This document shows positions 6,182 through 22,092 of a stretch of DNA of 57,346 nucleotides, one piece after another. Origin of the DNA: Defluviicoccus sp. (GTDB lineage: Bacteria > Pseudomonadota > Alphaproteobacteria > MPNO01). Numbering within the stretch: the first letter of the stretch is position 1; every line of letters starts with the position of its first letter. The notes below the pieces were generated by a model, which did no database searches, was not told the DNA's origin, and saw nothing but the letters and a program-made list of their open reading frames with translations. The stretch spans positions 1 to 57,346 of the forward strand of contig JAJDVM010000222.1 in NCBI GenBank assembly GCA_022826125.1, given 5' to 3'. Both the position numbers and the translations under genes were made by a program.

Positions 6182-9020
6182 CGGCCCTCGCGCCGGTTGC
6201 CCGTTTCCGGTCGTTTCCGCTCGTCTGCGCCAGGTCCAGCGTCGACGGCAGTCGCGCCGTAAACGTACTGCCCACCCCCGGCTCGCTGATCACCTCCATG
6301 TCTCCGCCCATCATGCGGCAGAGTCGGCGGCTGATGGGGAGGCCGAGCCCGGTGCCGCCGTATTTTCGGGTGGTCGAGCTGTCGGCCTGGGCGAACTCTT
6401 CGAACACCCTGGCCTGTTGCTCCAGCGTCATGCCGATGCCGGTATCCGAGACCGCGAATTCGACCCAGTCCTTGTCGCGGACCCTCCGCCGTTCGACGGT
6501 CAAGCCGACCTCGCCGTCCTCGGTGAACTTGCAGGCGTTGCTCAGCAGGTTGAGGACGATTTGCCGCACCCGTGTCGCGTCCCCATGCATCGCGCCGAAG
6601 TCCTTGGGATGACGAACCGCCAGCCGGTTGCCCTTCTCCCTGGCGAGCGGCTGCGCCGTCGTCGCCAGCTCTCCCATCAGCCCGGCGATGTCGATCGCCT
6701 CGATATGGAACTCGACTCTCCCCGCCTCGATCTTGGAAAGATCGAGAACCTCGTCGATCAGGTGCAGGAGGTGCCTGCCCGCGCGGGAGATCCGTTCCAG
6801 GGGCTCGATATAGTCGTCCTGGCCGTCGTCCTGCGCGTCCTCCTCCAGCAATTCGGTGATGCCGATGATGGCGTTCAGGGGCGTGCGCAGCTCGTGGCTC
6901 ATATTGGCGAGGAACTGGCTCTTGGTCCGGCTGGCCTCCATCGCCTGGTCGCGTGCGACCGTCAACCGGTCGACCAGGTCGGCGAGTTCGGCCTCGCGTT
7001 TTTTGGCGTCGGTGATATCGGTGTAGATGCCGACGACGCTGGCGTCGGGGGACAGCCTCTCGTCGATTCTGACCCAGACGCCGTTGTTGAAGCGCATTTC
7101 CACGGCGTTCATCGGGTAGTCCCGCCACTCGGCCAGGAATTCCTCGGTGGTGCCCCCGCTGTCCGGGAACATGCCGCGTTCGAAGGCGGCTCTGTGGATC
7201 GTCTCGCGATCGGCGCCCGGCACCAGGAGCGCGGCCACCTCCTCGCCGACCGCGTCGCGGTAGTATCGCTCGTAGTTGCTGTTGCATATGACGAGGCGGT
7301 CCTCCCCGTCGAAGACGACGAAACCCTCGGAGATCGCCTCGATCGCCTCGGTGAGCTGGGCGCGCGCTTGCAACGCCTCGTCGCGGGTCTTGCCGAGCTC
7401 CTCGACAAGCTCGCTGAGCCGTTGCTCGCGCCGCTTCATCTCGGTGATGTCGAAATAGGTCAGCATACGGCCGCCGTTCGGCAGCGCGATGCATTGGTAT
7501 TGCAGGACCATGCCGTCGGCGCGGGTCCACTCGAAAGGCGGGATGGCGCCCGCGCGGACGGCCTCGACGCGGCTCCCGAGATAATCGTCCCACTCGTCGT
7601 CGGGAACGCCGTAGATCCCGGTATGCCGGTTGTAACCGATCATTTCGGTCAGGGTCGGACGACCGTCGAAGAAATCGTCGGCAAAGCTCCACATGTCGCG
7701 GAAGGCGCGATTGGCGATCCGTGCCCTGAGGTCGGATCCCATGAAGCAGATTCCGTACTCGATGGTATCGAGCACGGCGTTGAGCTCCGCCTCGCGTTGC
7801 TTGACCTCCGTGATGTCGACATAGATCGAGACCGTACCGCCGTCCTGCGTGCGGCGCTCGGTACTTTGCAGCCAGACCCCGCTGGACAGATGGAATTCGA
7901 CGGGTGCCGCCGCGTCGTCCCGCCTTTCGCGTCGCTGTTTCAGATGGAGGTCGACGTGGAGCGTCGCGCCGGGGAACAATCCGCGCTCGAACAACGTGCG
8001 GAGGATCTCCTCGTACGATGCGCCCGGCACCAGCCGCTCCGCGGCCTCCTCGCCCGCCGCGTCGGCGTAGTAGCGCCGGTAGGTTTCGTTGCACAGAACC
8101 AGGCGATCGTCGGCGTCGAACAGCACGAAGCCTTCGGAGATGGTCTCGATCGCCTCGCTGAGCTGTCTCTGCGCCTGTTCCAGCTCTTCGGCCAGATGTT
8201 TCTCTTCCGTGGCATCGCCCATCGACCCCATCAGATGATGGGCCCGCCCCGTCTCGTCGCGCCGCGCGAGGCCGTGTTGGCGCAGCCAGCGCCAGACCCC
8301 ATCGCCGCCGCGCCAGCGGTACTCGAATTGGAAGCGGTCGGTGAGCCCTTTGAAGTGTGCGGTGAGCGCGTCGAGGAATCCCGTCCGATCGTCGGGATGG
8401 ATGCGGGCGAACCAGTCCTCTCCGGTCCGGAGTTGTCGCTCTTCGGACCCCAGCGCCTTGTAGAAGCCCGGCGAGCAGGTAACGGTGTCGTTGGCGATGT
8501 CCCAGTTGTAGACGCCTTCTCCGAACGCCTCGACGGCGAACGCATAGCGCGCTTCGCTCTCGCGAAAGGCCGACTCCGCCTCGGCACGACGTTCTTCGTT
8601 CGACTCGAGCGCGCGTTCGGTTCGCCGCGTATCCGTCACGTCGCGGCAGGTCATGAGCAGGCCGCCGTCCGGGATCGGATCGTACCGGAAGAGGATGCGT
8701 TCCCCGTCCGGCATGTCGCGCTCGAACCGGGAGCTTCGATGGGCGCTCGCCGCGATCTGCTCCTCGACGTCTGCCGGTCCGCGATCGCCGAGCGCCGCGC
8801 CGTGCCGGAGCAACGCCTCCAGCGGCGTCCCCGGCCGGCAAAGATCGTCGGGCAACCCGGCAAGCGTGCAAAACCGTTCGTTTCGCGCGACCAGCGTCAG
8901 ATCGCGGTCGAAGATGCCGAACCCGTCCTCGAGCAGATCGAGCGCCGAGTGCAGCAGGGCGTCGGGGTCCCGCGGCGGCGAGTCGATCCGGGTTCGTTCA
9001 ACGACCGCCTTCTCCGCCAT
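6174..9020 (-). CDS. Multi-PAS sensor histidine kinase
   Basis: A 948-residue kinase taking ATG 9018-9020 as the start ([11 protein letters not shown]). The upstream in-frame extension to 9269 covers the intergenic repeat and is unlikely. There are about five PAS/PAC segments, each ending in a DVT/DITE-type PAC motif; two of them share the wording [34 protein letters not shown] and look like an internal duplication. The catalytic core follows: HisKA with His709 ([10 protein letters not shown]), N box near Asn828, G1 DTGIGM at 859-864 and G2 GGTGLGL at 888-894. No transmembrane helix is apparent, so it is probably cytoplasmic. No receiver domain is fused; the two receivers are separate genes downstream. 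PAS content suggests redox, ligand or light sensing, ligand unknown. Confidence 0.9.
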
Positions 9021-9089
9021 GGTTCGACCCTGCCCTCGTCCCGGTGTGCGTCGATGCGCCATGCTATCCAGCGCGCCCGCCGGTTTCCA

Positions 9090-9112
9090 CCCGGCCCGCT
9101 CCCCGGGCCGGG
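9090..9112. repeat. GC-rich inverted repeat in the kinase/cupin divergent gap
   Basis: A perfect 8-bp stem, CCCGGCCC (9090-9097) and GGGCCGGG (9105-9112), with a 7-nt loop, lies between divergent genes. It has no T tract, so it is more likely an operator or mRNA leader hairpin than a terminator. Confidence 0.45.
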
Positions 9113-9157
9113 CCTCCGCGCGATCCCGAAGCGGCGGGTGGCGTCGCGGTTGCGGTC

Positions 9158-9190
9158 TGGCACCCCGATGCCCGAGCCCGTAAGCTTGCC
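9158..9190 (+). repeat. 33-bp direct repeat, copy B
   Basis: The second copy of the element at 3028-3060, 30 of 33 bases identical and in the same orientation, 38 bp upstream of the cupin gene. The interval between copies (about 6.1 kb) contains only the SulP transporter, two receivers and the histidine kinase. It could be a shared regulator-binding site, a dispersed genomic repeat, or the footprint of an insertion. Confidence 0.75.
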
Positions 9191-9228
9191 CGCGCGGGCG
9201 TCGCGGTGAGGCGCGATTTCCGCCCCCG

Positions 9229-10227
9229 ATGGAGATATCGCCGGCCGTGCCCCGCCCCTTGCAGCGCACCGAGGACCCCGAAGCCGCGTTTCACGCGCGG
9301 ATCGGCGCGGAGAATCTGGGCGCGCTCTGGGTCGGGCGGAGGGGCGTCGATCTCACCCGTCCGGGCACGCCGGCGGTGCCCACCCTCTGGCGCTTCGAGG
9401 ACGTGCGGCCCCGGCTGCTGGAAGCCGGCCGCCTGATCGGCGCAGAGAACGCCTTCCGCCGCGTGCTGGTCCTCCGGAACCCCGGCTTCGGCGGCGCGAT
9501 GCGGGCGACGCAGACCCTCTATGCCGGCATCCAGATCGTTCTCCCCGGTGAGATCGCGCCCTGCCACCGGCACAGCCAGACCGCGATCCGCTTCGTGATC
9601 GAAGGAACCGGCGCGCTGACCACCGTCGACGGCGCGGCGACGGCGATGGCGCCCGGCGACATGGTGGTTACCCCGCAATGGACCTGGCACGACCACCGCA
9701 ACGAGGGCGAAGAGCCGGCGATCTGGCTCGATATCCTCGATACGCCGCTGATCGACGCGCTGGATACCGTGTTCCGCGAAACGCACCGCGAGACCCTTCA
9801 GCCGCTCACCCGCGCGGAAGAGGACGTGCGACCGGCATTGAACCGCCGCGCCGCGCCCGCCCGCGCCGCTCTGGACCGTCTCGCGCGGGAGACCGCGCCC
9901 GACCCGTGCCTCGGCTGGCGGTATCGCTACGACGATCCGGGCCCCACCATGGCGGCGTTCCTGCACCGCCTGCCGCGCGGATTCGACGGCGCGCCCCGGC
10001 GCGCGAGCGACGGCGGGGTCTATTGCGTCGTAGAAGGGGCGGGCGCGACCGAGACCGAAGGCGGCACCCTGGAATGGGCCGCGAAGGACGTCTTCGTCGT
10101 GCCCGGCTGGTGCCGCCACCGGCACGTGGCCGATGACGGGGCCGTTCTTTTCCGCGTCAGCGATCTCGCGCTGCAGGAACGGCTCGGCCTGTGGCGCGAG
10201 CAACGTGTGGAAGGAGAGGTTCGATGA
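9229..10227 (+). CDS. Gentisate 1,2-dioxygenase-like bicupin
   Basis: A 332-residue two-cupin protein. The first cupin carries [17 protein letters not shown] with His113 and His115 and, further on, WTWHDH with His154/His156, matching the Fe(II) site of gentisate and 1-hydroxy-2-naphthoate dioxygenases. The second cupin ([21 protein letters not shown]) is present. The enzyme would open a 2,5-dihydroxybenzoate-type ring. The gene leads a tight operon: its TGA overlaps the next ATG by 4 nt, and the monooxygenase follows. The ATG at 9229 is the first good start after the 33-bp repeat. The exact substrate is not proven. Confidence 0.85.
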
Positions 10228-10709
10228 ACGGAGCGGAAAGGCGGGCCTTCGTCCGCGGGCACCGGACGGCGGTGTTCGGCTATGCGCGCAAGGCGGACGG
10301 GCCGTCGATGTCGGTCTGCTACTACGTCATGGACGGCGACGACATCCTGGTATCGACCATGATCCGCCGCGCCAAGGCGAAGGCGGTCAAGCGCGACCCC
10401 AAGGTCTCGCTCTGCATCCTCGACGAGAACTGGCCGCCGACCTACCTGTTGGTCTACGGCAACGCGGCGATCGAGGAGGAGGGGGGAGACGATCTGCTGA
10501 TCCGGATCTGCGAGCTGATGGCGGAGCAACCGATGCCCGAGGCCGAACGGGTGGACCTTCGCAAGATGGCGGCCGATGAGGGCCGCGTGGTGGTCCGCAT
10601 CGAGCCGTACGCGACGTTCGAGACCCCGCCGCGCCACGTCTACAACCCGGACGACGTGAAGACCCTGACGCACGGCTACGGCGCCACCCTGCCCTGGGAC
10701 GCGGCGTAG
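10224..10709 (+). CDS. Pyridoxamine 5'-phosphate oxidase (PPOX)-fold protein
   Basis: A 161-residue split-barrel flavin-binding-type protein (MSVCYYVMDGDDILVSTMIRRAKAKAVKRDPKVSLCILDE), typical of the PPOX/F420-dependent reductase superfamily. An AGGAGAGG-like ribosome site precedes the ATG, which overlaps the cupin stop (ATGA). The 5-bp gap to the flavin monooxygenase suggests cotranscription. It may supply reduced flavin to that monooxygenase, because two-component group D oxygenases need a reductase and reductases of the HpaC type share the split-barrel fold. That role is inference; the family call is solid. Confidence 0.8.
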   Translation: MNGAERRAFVRGHRTAVFGYARKADGPSMSVCYYVMDGDDILVSTMIRRAKAKAVKRDPKVSLCILDENWPPTYLLVYGNAAIEEEGGDDLLIRICELMAEQPMPEAERVDLRKMAADEGRVVVRIEPYATFETPPRHVYNPDDVKTLTHGYGATLPWDAA

Positions 10710-10714
10710 GGACG

Positions 10715-11902
10715 ATGGCCATGGTGCAGGCGGAAGAGCTCGTGGCCCGCGCCCGGGCGATGGTGCCGACGCTCCGCGAGCGCCAGGACCGCACCGAGGC
10801 CGACCGGCGGGTCTCCGACGAGATTTTCGGTCAGATGATCGACGCCGATCTCTACCGCCTGCTGCTGCCCAGGCGGTTCGGCGGCTTCGAGCACGGGCTC
10901 GACACCTATGTCGACGTCGCGTTCGAGATCGCCCGGGGCTGCGGCTCGACGGGATGGGTCTATTCGGTGACCGCCAAGTACCACCTCTTCCTCGGCATGT
11001 TCGGCAAGGAGGCCCAGGACGAGGTCTGGGGGGACGATCCGAACGCGGTCCTCGTCGTCTCCATAGCCCCCGCCGGCACCGCGGTGCCGGTCGAGGGCGG
11101 CTACCGGTTGTCCGGCCGCTGGATGTACTGCTCCGGCATCGACAACAGCGCCTGGACCGTCGTCGCCACCACCGTTCCCGACCCCGACGGCGGCGAGGGC
11201 ATCAAGGGCTATGCGCTGGCGCCGACGTCGGATTTCGGGATCGAGGACAACTGGTCGGTCGTCGGCCTCGCCGGCACCGGGTCGAAGACGGCCTACAGCG
11301 ACGATCTTTTCGTGCCCGCGCACCGCTTCCTGCCGCTCGCCGATACCATGTCCGGCGATCCGCCGGGCGCGGCGGTCAATCCCGGGCCGATGTTCCGGAT
11401 TCCCCTGTTCTCGATGATCTCGATCAGCCTGTGCGCGCCAATCCTAGGCATGGCTCAGGGCGCCTACGAGGAGTTCGTGGACGCGACGCGCAACCGCGTG
11501 ACCCGCGGCGCCGCCCTGTCGCAGCCGGTGCCGATGGCCTCGCTCCCCAACATCCACATGAAGGTCGGCGAGGCCGCCGCCTCGATCGACGCCGCCAGGC
11601 TGCTGGTCGACCGCGACTGCAAGGCGCTGATGCGGACGGTGTCCGCCGGGGACGAGCTCACCGTCGAGGCGCGCGCCCGCAACAAGCGCAACCTTGCCTT
11701 CGCCGCCCGCCTGTCGACCCGCGCGGCGGACCTGATGTTCGAGGCCGGCGGCGGCGGCGGGCTGTTCACCGCGTCGCGGATGCAGCGCTACTGGCGCGAC
11801 ATCCACGCAGCCGCCATGCATATCAGCATGAACTTCGACGCGGTATCCGCGCTCTACGGCCGGATCGCCCTCGGCCTGCCGCCCGGCCCGGCGCAGTTCT
11901 GA
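10715..11902 (+). CDS. Acyl-CoA dehydrogenase-fold flavin-dependent monooxygenase (group D, HpaH/HsaA-like)
   Basis: A 395-residue protein with acyl-CoA dehydrogenase-like N-terminal, middle and C-terminal type-2 domains. Diagnostic stretches are LLLPRRFGGFEHGLDTYVDVAFEIARGCGSTGWVYSV, GYRLSGRWMYCSGIDNSAW and GTGSKTAYSDDLFVP. The glutamate base of true acyl-CoA dehydrogenases is not evident. These enzymes hydroxylate phenolic substrates (p-hydroxyphenylacetate, steroid phenols) with FMNH2 or FADH2 from a separate reductase. Encoded directly after the PPOX gene and a ring-cleavage cupin, it plausibly prepares the phenol that the cupin opens. ATG 10715 or 10721 could be the start. Confidence 0.82.
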   Translation: MAMVQAEELVARARAMVPTLRERQDRTEADRRVSDEIFGQMIDADLYRLLLPRRFGGFEHGLDTYVDVAFEIARGCGSTGWVYSVTAKYHLFLGMFGKEAQDEVWGDDPNAVLVVSIAPAGTAVPVEGGYRLSGRWMYCSGIDNSAWTVVATTVPDPDGGEGIKGYALAPTSDFGIEDNWSVVGLAGTGSKTAYSDDLFVPAHRFLPLADTMSGDPPGAAVNPGPMFRIPLFSMISISLCAPILGMAQGAYEEFVDATRNRVTRGAALSQPVPMASLPNIHMKVGEAAASIDAARLLVDRDCKALMRTVSAGDELTVEARARNKRNLAFAARLSTRAADLMFEAGGGGGLFTASRMQRYWRDIHAAAMHISMNFDAVSALYGRIALGLPPGPAQF

Positions 11903-11970
11903 AAGTCGGGCGGCCGCCCGCTTCGAGCGCTCCCGCATTTCGCGATTCCGCGGCCGGCGGGAAGCCCGGT

Positions 11971-13143
11971 CTACTCGTATGGCAGCCCGACATATTGCTC
12001 GGCCAGCGTCGCCATCGCGTTCTCCGAACGGGCGACATAGTCGAGCTCGTCCTCGCGGGTTCGCTGGTCGAACGGGTTGTCGTCGGGGAACAGATGCAGC
12101 AGCCGCGTCAGGTACCAGGACAGTCGGGCCGCGCCCCAGACCCGGCGGAGGGCGGTGTCGGAATAGCTGTCGAGATACGTGTCGTCATGCTGCTTGTAAT
12201 GCCGGATCAGCCCGCGCGACAGGTAGTAGACATCCGAGAAGGCGAGGTTGAGGCCCTTGGCGCCGGTCGGCGGCACGATGTGGGCGGCGTCGCCCGCCAG
12301 GAACAGCCTGCCGTAACGCATCGGCTCGGCGACGAAGCTCCTGAGCGGGGCGATCGACTTTTCGATCGTGGGGCCGGTCTCCATGGCGTCCGCTATGTCT
12401 CCCGGGAAGCGCGCCTTGAGCTCCTGCCAGAACAGATCGTCGGGCCATTCCTCGACGTCGTGGTCGAGAGGACACTGGATGTAGTAGCGGCTCAGCCGTT
12501 CGCTGCGCTGGGAGGCCAGGGCGAAACCGCGCTCGCTATTGGCGTAGACGATGTCCGGAAGGGGACGGGTCTCCGACATGACGCCGAGCCAGCCGAAGGG
12601 ATAGCTCTTGTTGTAGGTCTTCAGCACCGATCGCGGGATGCAGCGCCGGCTGACCCCGTGAAACCCGTCGCAGCCGATCACATAGTCGCAATCGATCTGT
12701 TCGGTGTCGCGGTTCTTGTCGAACGTGACGAAGGGGGCGTCCGTCGTAAGGTCGTGAAGCGCGACATTGGCCGCCTCGTCGACGACGATCCCGTCCGCCG
12801 CGTCGCGGGCCGAATAGAGATCCTCGGTGATCGCGGTCTGGCCGTAGGCCAGCATCTGCTTGCCGGTATATTTGGCGGTATCGATCAGGATTTTCCGCTC
12901 GCCTTTCCAGACGATATAGGCGCCGTCATGGGGATGGCCCTCCTCGTCCATCCGCTTGCCCAGCCCGACATCCCGCAGCAGCGCGACGGACCCGGCTTCC
13001 AGGACGCCGGCGCGAATGCGCCGCAGCACGTGCGCGCGCGAATGTTTTTCGAGCACGATGCTGTGGATGCCCTCGAGATGGAGAATATGCGACAGCATCA
13101 GCCCCGCCGGGCCGCCGCCGATGATGGCTATCTGTGTCCGCAT
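11971..13143 (-). CDS. pobA: 4-Hydroxybenzoate 3-monooxygenase
   Basis: A 390-residue class A flavoprotein of normal PobA length. It has the FAD GGGPAGL motif at 9-15, the RRIRAGVLE signature at 41-49 that marks PobA, DYVIGCDGFHGVSR, and the second FAD motif GDAAHIVPPTGAKGLN. It converts 4-hydroxybenzoate to protocatechuate with NAD(P)H and O2. Its product is the substrate of LigAB encoded at 35390-36494. A promoter candidate lies in the 117-bp gap behind it (13188-13217). It is convergent with the group D monooxygenase gene. Confidence 0.95.
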   Translation of the reverse strand: MRTQIAIIGGGPAGLMLSHILHLEGIHSIVLEKHSRAHVLRRIRAGVLEAGSVALLRDVGLGKRMDEEGHPHDGAYIVWKGERKILIDTAKYTGKQMLAYGQTAITEDLYSARDAADGIVVDEAANVALHDLTTDAPFVTFDKNRDTEQIDCDYVIGCDGFHGVSRRCIPRSVLKTYNKSYPFGWLGVMSETRPLPDIVYANSERGFALASQRSERLSRYYIQCPLDHDVEEWPDDLFWQELKARFPGDIADAMETGPTIEKSIAPLRSFVAEPMRYGRLFLAGDAAHIVPPTGAKGLNLAFSDVYYLSRGLIRHYKQHDDTYLDSYSDTALRRVWGAARLSWYLTRLLHLFPDDNPFDQRTREDELDYVARSENAMATLAEQYVGLPYE

Positions 13144-17244: not shown

Positions 17245-18864
17245 ATGATTGTGGGTGTCCGGCGGAACGGGGCGGGGCTGTTGCCTCTGGCTCTCGTGGC
17301 GGCGCTGTTCGCCGCGGCGGCGGTTCCCGCGTGGGCGCAGGACAAGCCGCCGCCGCTCTCGCCGCGCGCCCAGGCCGCCGACGCCAACGGTAACGGGGTT
17401 ATCGACCGGGACGAGGCCGGCGGACCCCTCGCGGCGAATTTCGACGAGATGGACTGCGACAAGAGCGGCTCCCTCGACGCCAACGAGATCCGCGCCTTCT
17501 TCACCGGGGCGGGGTGTAAGTCCATCGCGGCTGCATCGGCCGGCACGGCGCCGGCGCAAGCGAAACCGCCTCCGCCGCCGCTCTCTGGGCGGGCCAAGGC
17601 GGCGGACGCCAACGGCAACGGGGTGATCGACCGGGACGAGGCCGGCGGGCCTCTCGCGGCCAATTTCGACGAGATGGACTGCGACAAGAGCAATTCCCTC
17701 GACGCCAACGAGATCCGTGCCTTCTTCACCGGCGCCGGGTGCAAGTCCATCGCCGCCGCCGGAAAGCCCGCGCCCGCCGGCGCTTCCCCGAACCGGCGGC
17801 AACCCGCCCCGCCCCGTGGCGGCGGTCGGCCCCCGTCGGCGGTGACGCTCGACGACGTGATCGCCGAGCCGCTCGCCAAGACCGTCCCGGTCATCGGACG
17901 GCTGGTCGCGCGCCAGTCGGGCGTGGTGGCGAGCCAGGTGCGCGGCGCGGTGGTCGAGATGCGGGTCGATGTCGGCGACCGGGTCGAGCGCGGCCAGGTT
18001 ATCGCCGTGCTCGCAGACGGGCGGATGAAGGCCGCGCGCGACCGCTCCGCCGCTTCCGTCGCGCGCTTTCGCGGGCTGGTGGCGGCGGCGGAAGCCGAGT
18101 ACAGAAAGAAACAGGGCGAGTTCAAGCGGCTCGGCAGCCTCCGGAAATCGGCGGCGTTCTCGCGGGCCCGCTACGAGGATCTGCAACGCGACGTCCAGGC
18201 GCGGCGCGGCGCACTGGACGACCGGCGCGGACAGCTGCGGGAAGCCCGGGCGCAGCTACGCCAGGCGGAGATCGACCTGGCGGACACCGCCATCAAGGCG
18301 CCGTTCCCCGGCGTGGTGACCGAAAAGCACATCGACATCGGCACCTATCTCAATGTCGGCGCGCGCGTGGCGAGCATCCTCAACGACACCGATCTCGAGG
18401 TCGAGGCGGAGGTCCCCTCCGACCGGCTGGGTGAGCTATCCACCGGCGCCCTTGTCGCGCTGACGCTGGACGACGGTTCGCGCCATCGGGCGACGGTGCG
18501 CGCCGTCGTCCCGACCGAGAACGTCCGGACCCGGACCCGCCCCGTGCGCTTTACCCCGAATTTCGGCAAGACCCGGATGCGGCTGGCCGCCGACCAGAGC
18601 GTTACCGTGCTGATCCCCATCGGCAGCGGCCGGGAAGTGGCCACGGTGCACAAGGACGCGGTGGTGCGCGGCGGCGCTGATGCGTTCGTCTTCGTGGTCA
18701 AGGACAATCTCGCCCGGCGGGTGAAGGTCATGCTGGGCGACGGCATGGGGTCGCGCTTCGTCGTGCTCGACGGGGTGAAGCCGGGCCAGAAGGTCGTCGT
18801 CCGCGGCAACGAGACGCTCGGGCGCGGCGGGCCGGTGCGTATCCGGGGCGGCGCCGGCAGCTGA
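17245..18864 (+). CDS. RND efflux periplasmic adaptor fused to tandem EF-hand domains
   Basis: A 539-residue secreted protein. ATG 17245 gives a textbook signal peptide (VRR, hydrophobic core, cleavage near AWA-QD); TTG 17200 and ATG 17209 are possible but place charged residues before it. Two 60-residue units (38-97 and 113-172) each hold two 12-residue EF-hand calcium loops: DANGNGVIDRDE (46-57, 121-132) and DCDKSGSLDANE (70-81; the copy at 145-156 has Asn at position 6). A membrane-fusion-protein body follows: lipoyl halves around 218-259 and 280-330 flanking a helical hairpin, then beta-barrel and membrane-proximal parts. It should link the inner-membrane RND pump to an outer-membrane channel. 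Calcium-dependent gating is inference. The permease gene follows after 21 bp. Confidence 0.85.
   Translation: MIVGVRRNGAGLLPLALVAALFAAAAVPAWAQDKPPPLSPRAQAADANGNGVIDRDEAGGPLAANFDEMDCDKSGSLDANEIRAFFTGAGCKSIAAASAGTAPAQAKPPPPPLSGRAKAADANGNGVIDRDEAGGPLAANFDEMDCDKSNSLDANEIRAFFTGAGCKSIAAAGKPAPAGASPNRRQPAPPRGGGRPPSAVTLDDVIAEPLAKTVPVIGRLVARQSGVVASQVRGAVVEMRVDVGDRVERGQVIAVLADGRMKAARDRSAASVARFRGLVAAAEAEYRKKQGEFKRLGSLRKSAAFSRARYEDLQRDVQARRGALDDRRGQLREARAQLRQAEIDLADTAIKAPFPGVVTEKHIDIGTYLNVGARVASILNDTDLEVEAEVPSDRLGELSTGALVALTLDDGSRHRATVRAVVPTENVRTRTRPVRFTPNFGKTRMRLAADQSVTVLIPIGSGREVATVHKDAVVRGGADAFVFVVKDNLARRVKVMLGDGMGSRFVVLDGVKPGQKVVVRGNETLGRGGPVRIRGGAGS
17356..17535 (+). repeat. EF-hand-pair coding repeat, unit 1 (180 bp)
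   Basis: This unit aligns without gaps to 17581-17760: 158 of 180 bases and 57 of 60 residues are identical. Of 22 differences, 16 are silent, which shows selection for the encoded calcium-binding unit after duplication. Confidence 0.9.
17581..17760 (+). repeat. EF-hand-pair coding repeat, unit 2 (180 bp)
   Basis: Second copy of the EF-hand-pair unit, joined to the first by a 15-residue Ala/Pro-rich linker. It differs by three residues (Pro to Gly, Gln to Lys, Gly to Asn), the last at loop position 6 of its second EF-hand. Each unit keeps two cysteines 20 residues apart. Confidence 0.9.
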
Positions 18865-18885: not shown

Positions 18886-21800
18886 ATGAATCTCATCCGC
18901 CTGTCCATCGAGCGCCCCATGGCAGTGGTCGCCATGGTGTTGATGATCATCCTGTTCGGCTATGTCGCGCTGCAGCGGATCCCGATCCAGATGGCGCCCG
19001 ACGTGCGCCAGCCGGTGCTTATCGTCACCACCAACTGGCGCGGCGCGGCGCCCGCCGAGGTCGAGCGCGAGATCGTCATTCCGCAGGAGGACGAGCTCAA
19101 ACGGCTCGAAGGGGTCCAGCGGGTGCTCTCCGAGGCGAGCCACGGCAGGGCCAAGATCACCCTCGAATTCTCGCCCGGCGTCAATTTCGACCGCATGCTG
19201 CTGCTGGTCTCCAACCGACTCGACCGGGTGACCAACTATCCCGAGGAGGCCGAGGAGCCGACGCTCGGGACGTCGGGGACCGAGGACAACGCCATCGCCT
19301 GGTTCCTCTTCTCGCGGGTCGAGGGCAACGACACCCCGATGCTCGAATACGGCGACTTCCTGCGCGACGTGGTGCAGGAGCGGCTGGAGCGCGTGCCCGG
19401 CGTCGGCGGGGTGAACATTTTCGGCGAGACCGAGCGCGAGATGCGGATCGTCATCGATCCGGAGCGGCTGGCGCGATACCGGCTCACCGTGGGCCAGGTC
19501 GTCGCCCGGCTGCGCGCCGCCAACGCGTCGATCACCGGGGGCGACATCGACGAGGGCAAACGCCGCTACACGGTACGCACGGAAGGCGATTTCGCGGCGA
19601 CGAGCGAGGTCGAGGCGGTCGTCCTCAGGTCGAACGCGCAGGGCGCCGGGCTGGGCCGGGTGACGGTGGGCGACGTGGCGACCGTCACGCTCGACTACAA
19701 GGAGGCGCGCGCGCGGATGTCCTCGAACGGCGTCCCGGCGCTCGCCCTCAACCTGACCCGCGAGCAGGGCGCCAACGTGATCGAGACCATGAAGCTGGCC
19801 CAGGAGACGATGGCCGGGCTTCGCGACGGCCCCATCAAGGAGAAAGGGCTGAAGGTCCGGCAGGTCTACAACGAGACCGACTACATCAACTCCTCGATCG
19901 CGCTGGTGATGCAGAACATCTATTTCGGCGGCGTTCTGGCGATCGTCATTCTGCTGGTGTTCCTGCGGTCGTGGCGCCCGACCATCGTCGTCGGTTTCGC
20001 GATCCCGGTCTCCGTGGTCGGCTCGTTCGTCGCCATGGCGCTGCTCGGGCGCTCGATCAACGTGATCAGCCTCGCCGGCATCGCCTTTGCCGTCGGAATG
20101 GTCGTCGACGCCGCGATCGTGGTGCTGGAGAATATCTACCGGTTGCGCCAGAGCGGCATGAGCCGCACCGAGGCCGCCTATCACGGCACCGCGCAGGTGT
20201 GGCCGGCGGTGCTGGTCTCCGCGCTCACCACGGTGATGGTGTTCATCCCGATCCTGATCATGGATCTGGAGGTCGGCCAGCTGTTCCGCGACATCGCCGT
20301 GGCGATCTCGGTCTCGGTGCTGCTGTCGCTGCTGGTATCGGTCACGCTGATCCCGGCGCTCTCGAACCGGCTGCTGGCGGGGCGGATCCCCGCGCGGGGA
20401 ACCCGGACGCGCCTGTTTCTAATCGACGGGACTGCGCATCGCTTCAGCTCGTTCTGGCGCTATTTCGCGCGCCTCGTCGTTCGCTCCAAGGTGCTGGCGC
20501 TGCTGGTGGTGGCGGCCATCACCGCGGCCGCCAGCGTGTTCGCGGCCACCTTCCTTCCCAAGCTCGACTATCTGCCCATCGGCAACCGCAATTTCATCAT
20601 CGGGTTCGTGCTTCCGCCGGCGGGCTACAATCTCGATACGACCGAAACCATCGCGCGCGGCGTCGAGGAAAAGACGCGCAAGCACTGGTCGGACGAGGCG
20701 CTCGCCGAGAGCGGCCGCACGCACCCGCCCGGAACCGACGAGGCGCAGAAGGTGATCGACCGCTTCTTCTTCGTCGCGCTGCGGGGCCGCGCCTTCATCG
20801 CCGCGCGCCATGTCGACGACCAGAAGGCGGCGGAGCTGATCCCGATAATGCAGACTCCCGCGCGCGACGAGCCGGGAACCTTGGGATTCGTCTTCCAGCC
20901 CTCGCTGTTCGGCCGGTCGATCGGCACCGGCCGGTCGATCGGCATCGACATTTCCGGCCCCGACCTGGAGACGATTTTCGCGACCGGACGGCAGGTGTTC
21001 TTCCGCACCATGGGGGCGCTGTCGCCGCGCGAGGGGAACCGGATCCGGCCGCGGCCCGCGCTCACGCTGGGAGAGCCCGAGGTCCGGGTGCTGCCGGACC
21101 GGGTGAAGCTCGCCGATAACGGCCTGTCGGCACGCGACCTCGGCCAGGCGGTCGACGCCTTCAACGACGGGGTGCGCATCGCCGAGATCAACGTCGACGG
21201 CAAGCGCATCGACCTGACGCTCAAGGGTCCGGATCAGAGCGACGAATCGACCCAGTCCATCGGGGTTCTGCCGGTGGTCACCGCCGACGGGCGCATCCTG
21301 CCGGTGCGCAGCCTGTCGGATGTCAGCGTGACCACCGGGCCGACCCAGATCCGGCGCATCGACCGGGTGCGCACCGTGACGATGTCGGTGTCGCCCGCGC
21401 GCGACATGCCGCTCCAGGCCGCGATGGACAAAATTCGGGACGAGGTGATCGAGCCGCTGCGAAAGAGCGGCCTGCCGGACGGGGTGCGCATACGAATGTC
21501 GGGTTCGGCCGACAAGCTGACGACGACATGGAACGAAATCGTGCTCGACCTCGCGCTTGCCGTCATCATCGTCTACCTCGTGATGGCGGTTCTGTTCGAG
21601 AGTTTCGTCTATCCGCTGATCGTGCTCCTGTCGGTGCCGATAGCAGCGGCCGGCGGGCTTGCCGGGCTGGCGGTGCTCAATCTCTACGTCACACAGCCGC
21701 TCGACATGCTGACCATGTTGGGATTCGTCATATTGGTCGGCATTGTCGTCAACAACGCGATTCTGCTCGTCCACCAGACGCTTCATCACATCCGCCACGA

Positions 21801-22092
21801 GGGCATGACGGCCGGCGACGCGATCGAGGCCGCGACCGACAACCGCATCCGGCCGATCTTCATGTCCACCCTGACGTCGATCTTCGGAATGCTGCCTCTG
21901 GTGGTCTTCCCCGGCGCCGGTTCGGAGCTCTATCGCGGGCTCGGATCGGTCGTGCTCGGCGGGCTGTCGCTCTCCGCGGTCCTCACCATGGCGGTGGTGC
22001 CGCCGATGATGTCGATCACCGTCGGCATTCTCGAGCGCCGGGCGGGAAAGAAGGCCGATGCGCTCCGGGGAGACGTCGCGCCGGCCGAGTAA
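18886..22092 (+). CDS. RND efflux permease (HAE1/AcrB-type)
   Basis: A 1068-residue inner-membrane proton-driven pump with the usual two-fold architecture: a first helix after MNLIRLSIERPMAVVAMVLMIIL, a large periplasmic loop, a helix bundle, then a second half with WNEIVLDLALAVIIVYLVMAVLFESFVYPLIVLLSVPIA and VGIVVNNAILLVHQ. In TM4 the proton-relay region reads GMVVDAAIVV: Asp408 is kept, but the second aspartate of AcrB is Ala409. It is cotranscribed with the EF-hand adaptor upstream. No outer-membrane factor is encoded here. The substrate is unknown. Confidence 0.92.
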   Translation: MNLIRLSIERPMAVVAMVLMIILFGYVALQRIPIQMAPDVRQPVLIVTTNWRGAAPAEVEREIVIPQEDELKRLEGVQRVLSEASHGRAKITLEFSPGVNFDRMLLLVSNRLDRVTNYPEEAEEPTLGTSGTEDNAIAWFLFSRVEGNDTPMLEYGDFLRDVVQERLERVPGVGGVNIFGETEREMRIVIDPERLARYRLTVGQVVARLRAANASITGGDIDEGKRRYTVRTEGDFAATSEVEAVVLRSNAQGAGLGRVTVGDVATVTLDYKEARARMSSNGVPALALNLTREQGANVIETMKLAQETMAGLRDGPIKEKGLKVRQVYNETDYINSSIALVMQNIYFGGVLAIVILLVFLRSWRPTIVVGFAIPVSVVGSFVAMALLGRSINVISLAGIAFAVGMVVDAAIVVLENIYRLRQSGMSRTEAAYHGTAQVWPAVLVSALTTVMVFIPILIMDLEVGQLFRDIAVAISVSVLLSLLVSVTLIPALSNRLLAGRIPARGTRTRLFLIDGTAHRFSSFWRYFARLVVRSKVLALLVVAAITAAASVFAATFLPKLDYLPIGNRNFIIGFVLPPAGYNLDTTETIARGVEEKTRKHWSDEALAESGRTHPPGTDEAQKVIDRFFFVALRGRAFIAARHVDDQKAAELIPIMQTPARDEPGTLGFVFQPSLFGRSIGTGRSIGIDISGPDLETIFATGRQVFFRTMGALSPREGNRIRPRPALTLGEPEVRVLPDRVKLADNGLSARDLGQAVDAFNDGVRIAEINVDGKRIDLTLKGPDQSDESTQSIGVLPVVTADGRILPVRSLSDVSVTTGPTQIRRIDRVRTVTMSVSPARDMPLQAAMDKIRDEVIEPLRKSGLPDGVRIRMSGSADKLTTTWNEIVLDLALAVIIVYLVMAVLFESFVYPLIVLLSVPIAAAGGLAGLAVLNLYVTQPLDMLTMLGFVILVGIVVNNAILLVHQTLHHIRHEGMTAGDAIEAATDNRIRPIFMSTLTSIFGMLPLVVFPGAGSELYRGLGSVVLGGLSLSAVLTMAVVPPMMSITVGILERRAGKKADALRGDVAPAE

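Follow-up and report, generated by a model that had tools for sequence, protein, structure and literature searches.

An RND efflux adaptor with an N-terminal EF-hand module in Defluviicoccus and other Alphaproteobacteria

RND adaptors are usually regarded as connectors without ion sensors of their own, the Cu/Ag-type extensions apart, and Cu/Ag-type domains are the only metal-binding extra domains named in a review of these proteins, in which SilB and CusB exemplify heavy-metal RND adaptors with N- or C-terminal metal-binding domains (PMC4446572). The RLS docking motif of AcrA/MacA/MexA-type adaptors has been defined previously (PMC3391258). Regarding EF-hand proteins, the hallmarks of lanmodulin (LanM) are four EF-hands, a spacing of 12-13 residues and at least one proline at loop position 2 (PMC10232371), and the Caulobacter CaBP, a periplasmic EF-hand protein, shows a calcium-dependent mobility shift (PMC13171946).

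The window analyzed here is a stretch of 57,346 nucleotides from Defluviicoccus sp. (GCA_022826125.1, contig JAJDVM010000222.1). Positions 17245-18864 of its forward strand form a single unbroken open reading frame without internal stop, the 539-aa product of which is almost certainly an RND adaptor with an exported EF-hand module. The features of the gene and of its downstream neighbor are as follows.

17245..18864 (+): EF-hand RND adaptor gene, 539 codons plus stop (open reading frame, Pfam, NCBIfam)
17245..17337 (+): signal peptide, residues 1-31, likely cleavage between VPAWA and QD (read from the sequence)
17347..17534 (+): unit 1, the first EF-hand pair and first copy of the repeat (repeat detection, Pfam)
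17380..17415 (+): EF loop 1, DANGNGVIDRDE, residues 46-57
17452..17487 (+): EF loop 2, DCDKSGSLDANE, residues 70-81, Cys at position 2
17572..17759 (+): unit 2, the second EF-hand pair and second copy of the repeat (repeat detection)
17605..17640 (+): EF loop 3, DANGNGVIDRDE, residues 121-132 (alignment of 15 homologues)
17677..17712 (+): EF loop 4, DCDKSNSLDANE, residues 145-156, Asn at position 6 (alignment of 15 homologues)
17743..17829 (+): Pro/Gly/Arg-rich linker, residues 167-195 (low pLDDT, relaxed dN/dS)
17830..18861 (+): RND adaptor body, residues 196-539 (TIGR01730, AF2 model, Foldseek)
18127..18162 (+): RLS (RxxxLxxxxxxS) TolC-docking motif, R295-L299-S306, at the hairpin tip (alignment of 15)
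18886..22092 (+): RND permease (HAE-like), 1068 aa, 21 bp downstream of the adaptor (Pfam ACR_tran, 9.8e-206)

The first-pass annotation had described a signal peptide, EF-hands and a complete RND adaptor body in one frame, followed directly by an RND permease, and this layout was borne out by the absence of stops, by the Pfam and NCBIfam matches and by the ACR_tran match of the next gene. The domain search that it had proposed for the translation returned four EF-hand stretches as well as HlyD and RND_mfp profiles above their cut-offs. The ATG lies at the position of the Met of the homologues L003 and L004, and homologues have a hydrophobic N-terminus ending in A-x-A/Q that matches the signal peptide of the window protein; a periplasmic location of the adaptor can be assumed with good confidence. 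NCBIfam RND_mfp (TIGR01730) matched residues 201-533 (2.6e-51, 174.5 bits, cut-off 94.9), Pfam HlyD_3/HlyD_D23 matched as well, and a PDB search with the window protein yielded the adaptors MexJ, MacA and AcrA among its matches. The body, modelled by AF2 with a pLDDT of mostly 82-97, comprises membrane-proximal, barrel, lipoyl and alpha-hairpin parts (AF2 model, Foldseek), and its Foldseek hits included AcrA, MexC and MacA with E-values down to 1e-26. Regarding the RLS motif, R295 and S306 were present in 15 of 15 aligned adaptors and L299 in 13 (Ile in the other two); genes for TolC/OEP-type outer membrane factors are present elsewhere in the genome.

The four EF-hand stretches scored above the Pfam gathering cut-offs (EF-hand_1 1.9e-11, EF-hand_6 3.4e-12), and EF-hand_1/6/7 being above cut-off places them in the EF-hand superfamily; a genome search with the Pfam profile EF-hand_5 missed this gene and was set aside. 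The two units form a repeat of 188 nt at a spacing of 225 nt with 89% nucleotide identity between the copies, and the EF pairs were modelled as helix-loop-helix structures with short strands (AF2, pLDDT about 83). Two units had been predicted from the first reading of the sequence, and their number stands, with a size of about 63 residues at a period of 75 residues instead of the 60 then given; the four canonical loops of 12 residues described there were likewise recovered, except that the fourth loop carries Asn in place of Gly at position 6. The linker that follows was predicted to be disordered, with a pLDDT below 50 at residues 168-193 of the AF2 model. When the isolated EF module was submitted to Foldseek, only generic EF-hands were returned (calmodulin, troponin C, SCaMC1 and LanM, best E-value 3e-3), a result that does not discriminate.

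Across the 15 aligned adaptors, invariant ligands of the last EF unit were D1, N3, N5 and E12 of its first loop (loop 3 of the window protein: D121, N123, N125 and E132) and D1, D9 and E12 of its second loop (loop 4: D145, D153 and E156), despite an identity of only about 45-55% between the proteins. Between Defluviicoccus-type orthologues the dN/dS was 0.06-0.27 for the EF module and 0.08-0.17 for the body; the signal peptide (0.6-1.2) and the linker (0.16-0.61) were relaxed. The EF module is thus under purifying selection similar to that on the body. Within a pair, exactly 12 residues separated the two loops in all of 30 EF units, which represent every EF-bearing species with its pairs whole on the contig, a count for which the search pattern itself required 12 residues. 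A Cys at position 2 of the second loop of a unit (loops 2 and 4 in the window protein) and another past the helix of that loop were both present in 19 units and both absent from the remaining 11, a co-occurrence that suggests a periplasmic disulphide; presence or absence of the Cys pair corresponds to a single change on the tree. Canonical, conserved EF pairs behind a signal peptide are most simply read as binding calcium in the periplasm, and calcium binding by the module, predicted from the conserved ligands, is considered likely. Binding of a divalent cation other than calcium, the alternative named in the first-pass annotation, is possible.

An artefact, be it two genes fused by an assembly error, a missed frameshift or a start codon downstream of the EF-hands, is extremely improbable. 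One relative (G002, L024) has its EF pairs and adaptor body in different frames, but in all other relatives with both parts on the contig the fusion is in frame, with the exception of the generally broken locus L033. A join or frameshift is ruled out by the in-frame fusion in independent assemblies together with the dN/dS of 0.06-0.27 of the EF module, the whole of which is under purifying selection. Translation beginning near codon 180 would yield an adaptor that lacks an export signal, and is ruled out by the placement of the signal peptide: it lies just ahead of the EF module in EF-bearing homologues complete at the 5' end and just ahead of the adaptor body in EF-less homologues, and in fusion proteins it is found only upstream of the EF pairs. 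The artefact is thus refuted by conservation of the in-frame fusion, which was found, as the first-pass annotation had suggested looking for it, in related genomes assembled independently. (Note that the shift in L024, at about 7700-8700, lies within the GC-rich linker and either stems from a sequencing error or marks a broken gene, and that in the metagenome-assembled genome (MAG) holding L033, at about 7860-12660, adaptor and permease are each split over several frames, likely by indel errors of the assembly.)

About 20 species from several alphaproteobacterial families share this layout, in which a signal peptide is followed in frame by one or two EF pairs, the linker and the body. Carriers are Defluviicoccus MAGs (L021-L023), Rhodospirillaceae MAGs (L025, L026 and L034), alphaproteobacterial MAGs (L027 and L028) and further genomes from this order or class. 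A Pseudomonadota-wide search at E<=1e-90, in a limited sample with many genomes of this same class, gave no match outside the Alphaproteobacteria. In an unrooted tree of 53 adaptors, calculated from the bodies only with the EF module left out, the 21 EF-bearing adaptors formed one clade (support 100/99) apart from 32 EF-less ones, so that one fusion event is enough. An unrooted tree in principle allows either one gain or one loss of the module; a gain is favored, as other RND adaptors lack the module. Probably a single insertion in an alphaproteobacterial ancestor placed the module behind the signal peptide and ahead of the membrane-proximal domain, and the fusion is vertically inherited and constrained. 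The number of EF pairs is one or two, several relatives having only two EF-hands compared with the four of the window protein, and the tree implies five or more changes in this number. The two units of one genome are usually 72-96% alike and corresponding units across clades 48-80%; units being usually more alike within genomes than between clades points to repeated duplication or homogenization. In a sister family of the same order (f2; L014-L020 and L048-L058) EF-less adaptors carry a basic extension rich in Lys, Arg and Gly, which sits at the position of the EF module in the window protein.

The cognate permease was nearest to the multidrug model NF033617 (HAE-1), with 595.9 bits, yet below the cut-off of 1250, and yielded 316.6 bits with the CusA/CzcA heavy-metal (HME) model (cut-off 701.5). 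Partners of EF adaptors formed one permease clade (SH-aLRT 100) among 37 permeases, and at 14 positions the EF-type permeases have fixed residues that the other permeases almost never show. Such fixed differences are expected in any old clade and thus show co-inheritance, not contact. Adaptor and permease are the sole gene pair kept across lineages; since the other neighbors vary by lineage, the neighborhood gives no substrate for the pump. The existence of EF-less homologues with the same type of permease shows that the module is dispensable for the adaptor fold, and this EF-less sister clade offers ready-made controls.

Regarding the proton relay, permease positions were mapped to D407, D408, K940 and R971 of AcrB through an alignment with MdtB. 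All 37 of 37 permease homologues have D, Ala, Asn and R at these positions, so that the relay is not of AcrB type (D408 to Ala, K940 to Asn), and the TM4 motif VDAAIVVLEN contains a single Asp in place of the Asp pair. The replacement at D408/K940 is common to permeases with and without EF adaptors (L021-L034, L094-L103 and L147-L162), and the energy coupling of this subfamily may differ from that of AcrB. The main functional rival to a calcium-dependent assembly or stability element is that the EF-hands bind the hard-cation substrate of the pump itself (Ca, Mn or a lanthanide) and pass it to, or gate, the permease. This metal-capture reading, which is judged improbable, draws on the precedent of SilB and CusB, on the single Asp in TM4 and on a weak match to lanmodulin (NCBIfam 42 bits, 7e-11; PDB 6mi5/8fns). 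It is opposed by the permease being nearest to multidrug types (595.9 versus 316.6 bits, both below their cut-offs), and by the fact that all 18 EF-less relatives share the TM4 feature, which therefore did not arise with the EF module.

The similarity to lanmodulin amounted to 42.3 bits (NCBIfam, 7e-11) against an equivalog cut-off of 135, and the LanM structures 6mi5 and 8fns were among the PDB matches. Four EF-hands are present, as in LanM, and the spacing within pairs (12 residues) agrees with it; about 39 residues lie between the pairs, and the length of 539 aa exceeds the LanM limit of 200. Pro at loop position 2 was absent from all 30 EF units, and loops of the window type have 3-4 acidic ligands among positions 1, 3, 5, 9 and 12, compared with mostly four or five in the LanM loops aligned with them. 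In an EF-loop pattern scan of 142 alphaproteobacterial genomes a loop separation of 72 nt was the commonest arrangement (15 of the 24 neighboring loop pairs at 66-111 nt lie exactly 72 nt apart), and among the few loci checked further a loop-to-loop spacing of 24 residues was the mode. The 12-residue spacer is thus generic in alphaproteobacterial EF proteins. A PQQ alcohol dehydrogenase above cut-off was not found in the genome. The missing Pro, the low bit score, the fewer acidic ligands, the generic spacing and the lack of a PQQ alcohol dehydrogenase above cut-off all weaken a lanthanide or LanM reading, and a lanthanide role of the module is unlikely. The loop composition (no Pro at position 2, 3-4 acidic ligands) and the lack of that dehydrogenase also count against the metal-capture reading.

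The reading in which the module, loaded with calcium and located at the membrane-proximal end of a TolC-dependent RND pump, makes assembly or stability calcium-dependent is given about an even chance. After export, each EF pair would bind calcium and fold. By analogy with AcrA and MacA, a pump would contain six adaptors, so that up to 24 sites could ring its base near the inner membrane. Given its insertion point, the module would lie next to the membrane-proximal domain, where the adaptor ring faces the permease, and it is this placement that favors an element for calcium-dependent assembly or stability. The loaded module would then be a structural and assembly element in contact with neighboring adaptors, the periplasmic face of the permease or the envelope, and stability or activity of the complex would thereby depend on periplasmic calcium. 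That the EF module affects pump assembly or activity, much as the first-pass annotation had proposed with gating or assembly by periplasmic calcium, is what we infer.

A calcium-regulated efflux pump in the stronger sense, in which calcium on the adaptor EF-hands switches assembly or activity, is possible but doubtful. Several points weigh against the calcium-dependent assembly or stability element as well. Calcium in seawater is millimolar, and the sites in marine members may therefore stay full and be non-regulatory. The linker, being long, predicted to be disordered and fast-evolving, counts against rigid coupling of module and body, and the at least five changes in pair number suggest that exact stoichiometry is of little importance. 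The disordered linker and the swings between one and two pairs (at least five on the tree), as well as the possible disulphide staple in one subclade, would also suit a passive, non-regulatory spacer or calcium-stabilized fold, whose EF pairs stabilize the N-terminus or anchor it to anionic lipopolysaccharide or peptidoglycan; invariant metal ligands and a low dN/dS, however, exceed the needs of a mere spacer, EF-type permeases hold fixed residues of their own, and this passive role is rated as rather unlikely. Returning to the calcium-dependent element, an EF-hand adaptor under selection across several families would provide a natural test of whether a periplasmic ion tunes a tripartite pump directly. 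If the pump were indeed calcium-switched, external calcium would have a direct post-translational link to efflux.

An adaptor with EF-hands had been considered unusual from the sequence, in agreement with the searched literature (subscription papers and domain-architecture databases lay outside it), no paper of which combined EF-hand, RND and periplasmic adaptor; an unremarked database record of this architecture likely exists. AcrA, MexA, MexJ and TriA (TIGR01730) resemble the window adaptor in the complete body, the RLS motif and the permease next door; they have no reported EF-hand module, whereas adaptors of the window type have 2-4 EF loops after the signal peptide and before the membrane-proximal domain. 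SilB and CusB share with it a metal-binding domain appended to an adaptor terminus, of which the EF-hand module would be a second kind. SilB, however, has a C-terminal CusF-like beta-barrel for Cu/Ag, whereas the EF-hands of the window adaptor are N-terminal and offer hard oxygen ligands, and in contrast to the SilB/CusB systems the permease of this adaptor is nearest to multidrug types. LanM is likewise periplasmic, with paired EF-hands, a 12-residue spacer and detectable sequence similarity, but the window module lacks Pro at position 2, has about 39 residues between the pairs and fewer acidic ligands, and lies inside a 539-aa adaptor. The Caulobacter CaBP is also an exported EF-hand protein; alphaproteobacterial EF proteins of that type are small and free-standing, whereas the EF-hands described here are fused to a transporter adaptor.
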